From a virus, in IMG/VR virus record IMGVR_UViG_3300044614_001341, positions 1 through 64,000 of that record: DNA of 64,000 nucleotides; one strand, given 5' to 3'. The position numbers and the translations under genes are program-made. Of the stretch, positions 19,123 to 43,460 are shown in pieces (within the stretch, counting starts at the first letter, position 1; every line of letters starts with the position of its first letter). Below the pieces are notes generated by a model that saw only the letters and a program-made list of their open reading frames with translations, did no database searches and was not told the origin of the DNA.

Positions 19123-19394
19123 TGTTTTTCTCCTTGATAAGAATGATGTTGTTTAAGTTCGGGATTAGGTTGAGAAGAAATCACAGGGTTTCTTGTTTTG
19201 TTTTTGATAACGATAAAGGCATCATTCTGGTAAGTTACTGTTCCATATGGTTTTGCCCATTTTGGGTTAGCATCTGGATGTGTAGAAGTTCCTGTTGCTG
19301 CTACACCACCAATTTCTACCACAATTTCATCATTACGATCCCAGTTAAGTTCTTGAAGGGCAAGACTCAGTTGCCCTAACATTCCAGCACTCAC
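19119..19394 (-). CDS. Hypothetical protein, 91 aa, between petF and hli
   Basis: Not recognised. Starts at a GTG (19394) forming a GTGA overlap with the petF stop; an ATG at 19382 is the alternative. Soluble, with a glycine-containing N-terminal half ([18 protein letters not shown]) and a basic C-terminus. Tight coupling on both sides places it in the hli-petF-hli-peroxiredoxin operon. Confidence 0.65.
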
Positions 19395-19681
19395 AGGTTC
19401 TCTTCCTGTTCAGTGAGAATTACACAATCACTGGTTGGATATGCTACGCAGGTAAGCACCCATCCATCCGCCAGTTGATCGTCATCAAGAAACGATTGCT
19501 CCTCATTATCGACAGTACCGCTGATGAGTTTGCCAGCACAAGCAGAGCAAGCACCCGCTTTGCATGAAGAAGGGAGGTCAACGCCTGCCTCTTCTGCTGC
19601 TTCAAGAATGTATTGATCAGGGGCACACTGGATAGTGGTTTCGGTGCCGTCAGGGGTTTGAAGTGTAACGTTGAATGTCAT
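19391..19681 (-). CDS. petF: Plant-type [2Fe-2S] ferredoxin
   Basis: 96 residues from [12 protein letters not shown] (ATG at 19681). Cysteines 40, 45, 48 and 78 give the C-x4-C-x2-C-x29-C pattern of plant-type ferredoxins ([14 protein letters not shown] and LTCVAYP). It accepts electrons from photosystem I and could feed phage or host reductases, including bilin reductases or thioredoxin reductase. A longer frame adds six residues without a better ribosome-binding site. Confidence 0.93.
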
Positions 19682-19682
19682 T

Positions 19683-19769
19683 TCAATAAGTTTCCGCAAC
19701 TTTCTCTACAGCATAGCATAGAAGCACAAAAAAGGCAACTGATGTAATGGTAAAAATTGTTTCAGTCAT
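19683..19769 (-). CDS. Small membrane peptide, 28 aa
   Basis: ATG overlaps the hli stop (TGATG) at 19769, and the peptide ends just after the petF start. One membrane helix ([19 protein letters not shown]). The size recalls photosystem or cytochrome b6f subunits, but I cannot assign it to PetN, PsbI, PsbM or Psb30. Confidence 0.5.
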
Positions 19770-19963
19770 CAGAAGATACCGAAGAAGAAGTTGCCAGTGC
19801 TAACATAAGAAATGATGCCAGCAACAAAACCGACCATTGCCCAGCGTCCATTAGTGCGCTCCTTTACTTGATTGGGTGTGAGCATACCATAGTTCTCATA
19901 ATACATGGCAGGCTCTTTGGCAAACATATTCTGTTGCCCAAACTCATTAGTTGTTACAGTCAT
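19769..19963 (-). CDS. hli: High-light-inducible protein (HLIP), 64 aa
   Basis: From the ATG at 19963 the product is 64 residues with an N-terminal extension (about 30 aa) and the HLIP helix ERTNGRWAMVGFVAGIISYV, keeping the full ExxNGRxAMxGF signature, followed by STGNFF. First gene of the hli-petF-hli-peroxiredoxin transcript, 21 nt after the predicted transcription start. Confidence 0.9.
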   Translation of the reverse strand: MTVTTNEFGQQNMFAKEPAMYYENYGMLTPNQVKERTNGRWAMVGFVAGIISYVSTGNFFFGIF

Positions 19964-19990
19964 TGTACATTCGTTAAGAATTGTTACAAT

Positions 19991-20019
19991 ATTATATAGC
20001 AAAAAGAAAGGGGCGTCAA
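19991..20019 (-). promoter_or_regulatory. Sigma-70-type promoter with -35 in a terminator loop
   Basis: Minus strand -35 TTGACG, 17 bp, -10 TATAAT. TTGAC is the loop of the terminator hairpin AAGGGGC/GCCCCTT; the spacer is its descending arm plus T-tract. Drives the hli-petF operon. Confidence 0.75.
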
Positions 20020-20027
20020 GCCCCTTA
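20001..20027 (-). terminator. Terminator of the glycan operon
   Basis: Minus strand AAGGGGC-TTGAC-GCCCCTT then TCTTTTT, 35 nt after the last glycosyltransferase gene. Confidence 0.8.
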
Positions 20028-20061
20028 GTGTAAGCATTTATACTTATTTTGTTAAGATCCT

Positions 20062-20853
20062 CTAACTTTCAGATTGTGAAGAGTTGGTTATACGACCCAA
20101 ATAAGGATCATAGGTCATCAAATCATCAATATTCATCTCATATCCTTGTTGCTCCCAAAATTTACGCAGACCATCATGACTTGCTCGATGAAAAATATCG
20201 ATGTGTTCTGGATGAATAGAAGAACCTAATTCAATTCTATAAAGAAATAAAGGTATAGAAAAAGTATTACCAGAATTATAAATCAAATCGTCGGCAACTG
20301 GACGTGGTTTTACACCTTGATCTAGTTTATATTTTTCACCACGAACGTGAAACTTTATAAGTTTTTCTGCATGATGACGAGTAATCATGTACGCAGCAGT
20401 AGAAAAATTATTCACAAATCTTTTATGAAGTTTGACATGAATATCACCAGTGCAGATGATAGCAAGTTGAACAACATCCCAATCGTAAGGAACCTTTGCT
20501 GCAAAATCTGCCCAAGTAAAATTCCAGAATCTCGCAAGTTGCAAATCAACATCATCTTCCATGATGATTGCATAAGGGGAATCGGAAGTTTCATACCAAT
20601 GTTTGATTGCTTTAAGGTGTGAAGTTGTACATCCAATTTCTCCAGATGTCATCATTTCTGGATAACGACCTTTAATAATGTCACTAAGATCATCATCTCT
20701 ACCATCATACGCAGAGATCCTTTCGTAATTCTCAATCCCCCAATATTTAAATTGGTCTTCCATATATTGTTTTCTTTCTGGTTGCCCATCTAAATTTAGA
20801 TAATATATCGGTCCAATATTTTTGAGTTTATAGGAAGATTTATTTTTGTCCAT
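20062..20853 (-). CDS. Glycosyltransferase family 25 (LPS-type)
   Basis: 263 residues. IYYLNLDGQPERKQYMEDQF, the ERISAYDGRD segment, GEIGCTTSHLKAIKHWYE and the metal-binding IIMEDDVDL are GT25 hallmarks seen in LPS galactosyl- and glucosyltransferases. Adds a sugar to a cell-surface glycan in the cytoplasm or at the inner membrane. Last gene of the cluster, overlapping the preceding fucosyltransferase by 1 nt. Donor and acceptor cannot be read from sequence. Confidence 0.85.
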   Translation of the reverse strand: MDKNKSSYKLKNIGPIYYLNLDGQPERKQYMEDQFKYWGIENYERISAYDGRDDDLSDIIKGRYPEMMTSGEIGCTTSHLKAIKHWYETSDSPYAIIMEDDVDLQLARFWNFTWADFAAKVPYDWDVVQLAIICTGDIHVKLHKRFVNNFSTAAYMITRHHAEKLIKFHVRGEKYKLDQGVKPRPVADDLIYNSGNTFSIPLFLYRIELGSSIHPEHIDIFHRASHDGLRKFWEQQGYEMNIDDLMTYDPYLGRITNSSQSES

Positions 20854-31371: not shown

Positions 31372-31400
31372 ATTATACCAAAAAAGGAGAGTTTATGCAA
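31372..31400 (-). promoter_or_regulatory. Promoter of the glycan operon, -35 in a terminator loop
   Basis: Minus strand -35 TTGCAT, 17 bp, -10 TATAAT. GCAT is the terminator loop; the spacer is its descending arm and T-tract. The 11-kb operon below has no other promoter I can see. Confidence 0.7.
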
Positions 31401-31406
31401 CTCTCC
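31380..31406 (-). terminator. Terminator preceding the glycan operon
   Basis: GGAGAGTT-GCAT-AACTCTCC hairpin with six T on the minus strand (one extra A in the descending side). Ends the transcript of the 75-aa membrane protein. Confidence 0.8.
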
Positions 31407-43423: not shown

Positions 43424-43452
43424 ATTTTAGCAACAAAAAAGGGTCTTGTCAA
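43424..43452 (-). promoter_or_regulatory. Promoter with -35 in a terminator loop (SegE-like gene)
   Basis: TTGACA, 17 bp, TAAAAT; the -35 is the apex of the terminator at 43435-43460 and the spacer is its arm plus T-tract. Confidence 0.65.
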
Positions 43453-43460
43453 GACCCTTT
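43435..43460 (-). terminator. Rho-independent terminator of the 448-aa gene
   Basis: AAAGGGTCTTGACAAGACCCTTT hairpin followed by TTT on the minus strand, 22 nt after the stop. Confidence 0.85.

Follow-up and report, generated by a model that had tools for sequence, protein, structure and literature searches.

A putative composite terminator-promoter between two operons of a T4-type cyanophage, with the -35 element built into the hairpin

Introduction

PeSL (promoter-early stem-loop) cassettes were reportedly described in RB49/phi1 and in PST/nt-1 by Arbiol et al. 2010 and Comeau et al. 2014. RB49 places the stem-loop within the spacer that separates the -35 and -10 hexamers, without a U tract (TTGACA-GGGGATCGGTGATCCCC-TATAAT), an arrangement present at 12–15 sites. 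As an example of this second composite geometry, an 8-bp hairpin exactly fills the 17-bp spacer at 121736 and 122881 on the minus strand of the RB49 genome (NC_005066). The passage of PMC4503421 that deals with composite promoter-terminator cassettes of this type cites them as a described feature of T4-type phages that mediates gene shuffling; the same passage reports few PeSLs in S-PM2 and does not mention an hli site.

Two further systems provide points of comparison. Ordinary terminator-then-promoter junctions and synthetic terminator/antisense-promoter modules likewise combine termination and initiation in one junction, with the signals adjacent or the promoter facing backwards. Among cyanobacterial promoters, HLR1 is the RpaB site of those that are light-regulated, and RpaB represses at core-promoter sites; example HLR1 sites are given in PMC6331805, and the HLR1/RpaB-controlled hli (scp) promoters treated there share with the locus described below an hli-type gene and an HLR1-like motif in the core promoter (PMC6331805). 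Cyanomyoviruses lack the T4 proteins that redirect the host polymerase, and host sigma-70 promoters are believed to drive their early genes (PMC2984593).

Here we describe a junction between a glycan operon and an hli-petF operon at which the terminator shares bases with a promoter that points the same way. Judged by its layout, it comes closest to the PeSLs of T4-type phages, from which it differs in carrying the -35 element in the hairpin loop.

Results

Anatomy of the junction

The window, which is the whole 64,000-nucleotide stretch that was analysed, belongs to a virus record of 114,607 bases. The named phages closest to it by DNA are of the T4 type and infect Synechococcus, S-SRM01 and DSL-LC03 among them. 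The features of the junction, in the order of transcription, are as follows.

20062..20853, minus strand: glycosyltransferase family 25 (Glyco_transf_25), last gene of the upstream operon (PF01755, 3.8e-15)
20008..20026, minus strand: intrinsic terminator hairpin AAGGGGC(TTGAC)GCCCCTT (sequence, terminator scan, RNA fold)
20014..20019, minus strand: -35 element TTGACG (sequence, promoter scan; TTGAC core conserved in hli orthologues)
about 20001..20009, minus strand: terminator U tract TTTCTTTTT, within the promoter spacer (sequence, terminator scan)
19991..19996, minus strand: -10 element TATAAT, 17 bp from the -35 (sequence, promoter scan, IMG/VR spacing, hli leaders)
19984, minus strand: predicted transcription start, about 7 nt past the -10 (from sigma-70 promoter spacing)
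19973..19990 (conserved region 19970–19990), plus-strand letters GTTAAGAATTGTTACAAT: HLR1-like motif, a candidate RpaB site over the predicted hli start (match to KTTACAWWNNKTTACAWW)
19769..19963, minus strand: hli, high light inducible protein, 64 aa, ATG at 19963 (phrog_178, 2.6e-27)
19391..19699, minus strand: petF, 2Fe-2S ferredoxin (Fer2), second gene of the downstream operon (PF00111, 6e-24; phrog_844)

The glycosyltransferase gene closes a run of minus-strand open reading frames, and its stop codon (20062) lies 36 nt upstream of the hairpin. From there the minus strand reads ACTAAGGGGC-TTGAC-GCCCCTT-TCTTTTT-GCTA-TATAAT. The hairpin (20026–20008) has a 7-bp stem with five GC pairs and a 5-nt loop; its RNA fold has an energy of -12.0 kcal/mol (z -3.5) and beats all 200 of 200 shuffles. 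It thus has the make-up of an intrinsic terminator, a GC-rich hairpin with a U tract downstream of a co-directional gene, and an Rfam search at the element returned no family. Five bases of TTGACG form the hairpin loop, and the 3' arm begins with the sixth. TTGACG-17-TATAAT as a whole matches the consensus at 11 of 12 positions, joint best among 53 promoter-like sites in the 12 kb scanned.

The preliminary description had placed TTGACG across the terminator loop and stem, 17 bp before a perfect TATAAT, and these coordinates are borne out. It had further proposed that one element of 30 nt ends one operon and starts the next; the full span from hairpin to -10 is 36 nt, and the dual role itself is, at the level of sequence, well supported by the spacing statistics, compensatory stems and recurrence presented below. 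The two sets of signals are compatible, since only the RNA forms the hairpin whereas the hexamers are recognised in duplex DNA. RNA of the glycan operon would fold the hairpin and stop in the U tract at about 20003–20000; in DNA, bases of the hairpin would provide the -35, with the 3' arm and U tract supplying the 17-bp spacer to the perfect -10, and a host sigma-70-type holoenzyme would start hli-petF from TTGACG-17-TATAAT.

Like the PeSLs, the element is compact, joins a stem-loop to a strong promoter of sigma-70-like sequence, and stands at gene junctions of T4-type phages where neighbours are exchanged. A strong promoter of the sigma-70-like (early) type is predicted here from the 11/12 match, and the putative terminator stem-loop is fused to it, since the hairpin of -12 kcal/mol and its U tract overlap the promoter. 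PeSLs occur as many near-identical copies within the hyperplastic regions of a genome, and a search of the phage's own 114.6-kb record recovered one copy, together with one clear and one weaker analogue. Nor is the RB49 geometry found here: RB49 has its hairpin in the spacer, whereas this junction has its -35 in the loop and a 17-bp spacer made up of the 3' arm and a true U tract. The RB49 scan gave no convincing -35-in-loop site; with the same test T4 yielded neither composite type and KVP40 only weak cases. S-PM2 carries an hli composite at 124304–124337, and the element also stands upstream of hli in Bellamy, S-CAM3 and S-RIM44.

An HLR1-like motif over the hli start

The region directly after the -10 was scored against KTTACAWWNNKTTACAWW, which we take to be the HLR1 consensus, and matches it at 14 of 16 defined positions. 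HLR1 sites are expected to consist of paired TTACA-type half sites over 16–18 nt within the core promoters of genes that respond to light, and the motif conforms to this; matches at 13 or more of the 16 positions occur in 93% of 43 distinct hli leaders versus 2.2% of shuffles. This placement suggests that the phage gene is under the light control of host RpaB, and a literature search for a link between cyanophages and HLR1 found no paper. Compared with the cyanobacterial hli (scp) promoters, the phage promoter has an extra terminator around its -35, and its RpaB site is a candidate.

Other composites and late boxes in the same phage

Two further sites in the window have the -35-in-loop layout.

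43424..43460, minus strand: second -35-in-loop composite, AAAGGGTCTTGACAAGACCCTTT, U tract and TTGACA-17-TAAAAT, upstream of a GIY-YIG-like ORF (assigned by eye, not by profile)
31372..31406, minus strand: third, weaker composite, GGAGAGTTGCATAAACTCTCC, U tract and TTGCAT-17-TATAAT, upstream of a 273-aa ORF

Elsewhere in the phage's own record (65073–65095, minus strand) a terminator, GCGGGTTTTACACCCGC, and then a TATAAT stand behind RegA; the -10 is 23 bp from the loop TTTACA, which is too far, and it is possibly an extended -10.

The phage also places T4-type late promoters behind its terminators. The sequence NATAAATA stands right behind the U tract of 5 of 21 terminators (0.1 expected), and -10 boxes lie directly behind another count of 5 of 21 (0.7 expected), both expectations being drawn from the genome-wide and not the intergenic background. 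The terminator-late-promoter junctions, apparently a recurrent arrangement throughout this phage, are the following.

15534 and 44870 of the window, minus strand: terminator-late-promoter junctions
75663, 75737 and 83047 of the own record, minus strand: terminator-late-promoter junctions

At the hli junction a late-type box, TATAAATG, is located at 20035–20042 (minus strand), 8 nt upstream of the hairpin. Among the hli leaders, ATAAAT is present ahead of the -35 in 13 of 59, with a background of 2.4% per 45 nt, and is nearly always at one offset (20–22); the leaders being related, we treat this as a lead only. Given that fixed offset, late transcripts would start at the 5' edge of the hairpin.

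Spacing in virus collections

Strict -35-in-loop terminators number 0–2 per single genome, slightly above off-spacing controls; in the window's own record there are two, versus 0.16 in the off-spacing control. With single-genome counts this small, the statistical case depends on collection-wide scans. We searched IMG/VR for GGGCTTGACGCCC followed by TATAAT within 31 bases, which gave at least 120 matches; the distance between TTGACG and TATAAT is 17 bp in 98 and 16–18 bp in 113 of the 120 matches listed. A second scan with GGGTGCTTGACACCC (GGGTG-CTTGA-CACCC, containing a perfect -35) placed TATAAT at 16–17 bp in 119 of 123 matches, all 123 of which have a U tract. IMG/VR sequences are related, and these counts are not of independent events.

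Similar stems with a TTCG loop, searched in IMG/VR as a control, showed no sharp spacing peak and a slight excess at an 11-base gap. When the -10 requirement was dropped and a TATAAT with at most one mismatch was accepted, a -10 at 16–18 bp was found in 54 of 70 distinct TTGAC-loop contexts versus 10 of 138 TTCG-loop contexts. Bacterial and archaeal genomes (257 Gb) contain 42 matches to the GGGCTTGACGCCC pattern, with spacings scattered from 5 to 34. The spacing peaks, the flat TTCG control and the few bacterial matches argue that the overlap is a selected design found mainly in phages, and its recurrence at fixed spacing in other phages makes coincidence untenable.

A TTGAC loop by itself does not imply a promoter. 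BLAST matches in Kagunavirus, Kuttervirus and Vequintavirus were considered as a sign of a much wider range and set aside: the Kagunavirus copy (L291) has no -10 and is a plain terminator, so the enterobacterial matches were not counted as composites. Seven other loci (L294, L296, L303, L310, L314, L316 and L318) have GGGGCTTGACGCCCC followed by TTTATTTATATTATGTATGGGATAAATCTTAT; this family lacks a -10 at 17 bp and has a conserved block downstream.

Covariation in hli leaders

Orthologues of hli were gathered by protein match with the leader ignored, giving 60 distinct leaders. In 46 of them the -35 region sits in the loop of a hairpin whose stem has 5 bp or more, two of the 46 being doubtful in having a non-TTG -35. 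The stems vary widely (GGGGC/GCCCC, GGGGTG/CACCCC, GGGGAG/CTCCCC, AGAGGGG/CCCCTCT and others), and among named phages S-PM2, Bellamy, S-SM2, S-RIM32, S-CAM3, DSL-LC02 and S-SKS1 all surround TTGAC with hairpins of differing stems, for example GGAACCC/GGGTTCC in Bellamy and S-SM2 and AAGAGGG/CCCTCTT in DSL-LC02. The sixth base of the -35, which the promoter leaves free, is always paired in one register (pair -2/6), as T-A in 11 cases, A-T in five, G-C in four and C-G in two. Since the windows used for these pair counts had been picked for pairing, a permutation was run on a set unselected for pairing, in which 22 of 41 are complementary against an expected 7.5 +/- 2.1, and none of 20,000 permutations reached as high a value. 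Swapping 5' arms among leaders reduces stems of k>=5 bp from 40 of 53 to 21.4 +/- 2.3 (maximum 28 in 2000). The leaders are related and the counts are not independent; the weight rests on the diversity of the stems. That the design recurs with different hairpin letters in many related viruses is a mark of selection and not of coincidence.

The promoter is kept and the hairpin absent behind a co-directional upstream gene in 9 of 48 leaders, which indicates that the terminator is dispensable in those leaders; S-SCSM1, Sf-CH8 and DSL-LC03 show the same. With a divergent upstream gene there are two leaders with a hairpin and three without, so few that the association of hairpin presence with the orientation of the upstream gene is suggestive at most. 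As some leaders are promoter-only, the promoter is the constant part, with the hairpin built around it, and complementary arms would have grown around the -35 of this constant promoter.

Changing neighbours

About half of the sites in the first IMG/VR scan precede an hli gene, and 30 of 114 lie downstream of a RegA-like gene (PF01818), often 6 nt past its stop, in both cases among the matches listed. The nearest named relatives of the RegA proteins beside the element are in T4-type cyanophages, such as P-SSM2 and S-SKS1. S-SKS1 was considered as a case of transfer to an unrelated phage type, a proposal that we rejected, since its genome shares regA and a clamp loader with the T4-type cyanophages. 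By simple motif tests, 72 of the 123 sites of the second scan are next to neither hli nor regA.

The regA-proximal element has many unrelated genes downstream, and a single downstream gene is found behind different upstream genes, with the breakpoints at the element. Among named phages the position upstream of hli is occupied by GT25, PstS (phosphate-binding protein), tRNA-Leu, tRNA-Pro or genes of no assigned function. At three loci (L013, L058 and L081) the last codons of RegA (KKRVEETE) close a gene that has no relation to regA, with the composite just behind; this ending is a visible scar of recombination. By comparison of relatives, neighbours are exchanged at the element, as they are at PeSLs, and the compact cassette would serve as an exchange point for neighbouring genes as described for those cassettes.

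Discussion

On the strength of the anatomy, the fixed spacing, the compensatory stems and the changing neighbours, which can be read from the sequences compared, we regard this locus as a terminator and a promoter combined in one element between two operons of a T4-type cyanophage, with the -35 built into the hairpin, at a probability of about 0.83. The hairpin arms would insulate hli-petF from read-through at almost no cost in DNA. We infer that transcripts actually end and start at the junction, when they do so, and that light acts on the promoter by way of RpaB at the HLR1-like motif.

That an ordinary terminator and an ordinary promoter merely fell together here is scarcely credible. Both signals are common and phages often have GC stems with short loops, but first-order Markov simulations of the window give the same overlap once per 60 simulated windows, and the sharp peak at 16–18 bp, the control without one and the covariation tell against it further, the spacing peak already refuting chance. 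What the overlap is for is a different matter. It may be functionless in itself, selection for short junctions that keep both signals having produced it, because any hairpin that grows around a -35 saves DNA; this account is plausible, at somewhat less than even odds. The promoter is constant while the hairpin is gained and lost among leaders, and terminators in this phage often directly precede promoters of either class (late and -10, 5/21 each), although the expected counts for those pairings are genome-wide and not intergenic, and economy leaves unexplained why the -35 is precisely in the loop across many stems and not beside the hairpin. Alternatively, the element may be kept mainly as shared sequence for swapping neighbours with their control signals intact, the role ascribed to PeSLs, which we would entertain as a tentative possibility. 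The neighbour swaps of the regA version with breakpoints at the element and the RegA-codon fusions speak for this role, as does the PeSL shuffling known in T4-type phages according to the portion of PMC4503421 concerned with it; yet the exact sequence is single-copy in the window, so that local PeSL-PeSL exchange within the genome is unlikely, and the same portion of that paper holds the PeSLs of S-PM2 too sparse to account for gene gain (PMC4503421).

Coupling of the two operons, as the preliminary description had raised, is possible though on balance unlikely. Judging from the usual footprint of a polymerase, one that pauses at the U tract would lie across the promoter, and on terminating it might either keep the promoter from use or start anew from there; under coupling it would stay over the promoter and re-initiate, with glycan-operon transcription driving hli-petF. 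E. coli RNA polymerase usually remains on DNA past intrinsic termination and can re-initiate at a downstream promoter in vitro (55% with added sigma; PMC6978380), Harden et al. propose sense re-initiation as a form of gene coupling (PMC6978322), and termination falling inside the promoter is the shortest possible distance between the two. Sense re-initiation was nevertheless rare (<2%) on the template used in PMC6978322, hairpin-less promoters persist at hli and coupling is therefore not required, and occlusion of the promoter by the paused polymerase is equally compatible with the layout. More elaborate, and quite improbable, is a dedicated switch in which terminating polymerases would be passed to the hli-petF promoter under RpaB light gating, with a late-type box, TATAAATN, in a subset that includes the window's phage, so placed that late transcripts would start at the 5' edge of the hairpin, which would then act as a 5' stabiliser and no longer as a terminator; if so, one hairpin would take part in both ending and starting transcripts early and in stabilising mRNA late.

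As a composite terminator-promoter, the element is a natural template for studying post-termination re-initiation with terminator and promoter as close together as they can be, and cyanobacterial engineering could use it as a small insulated part. Cyanophages bring photosynthesis genes into their hosts, and little is known of how transcription is wired to such additions; in marine phages the -35-in-loop composite may offer a precise signature by which operon borders and points of gene exchange can be recognised in sequence.
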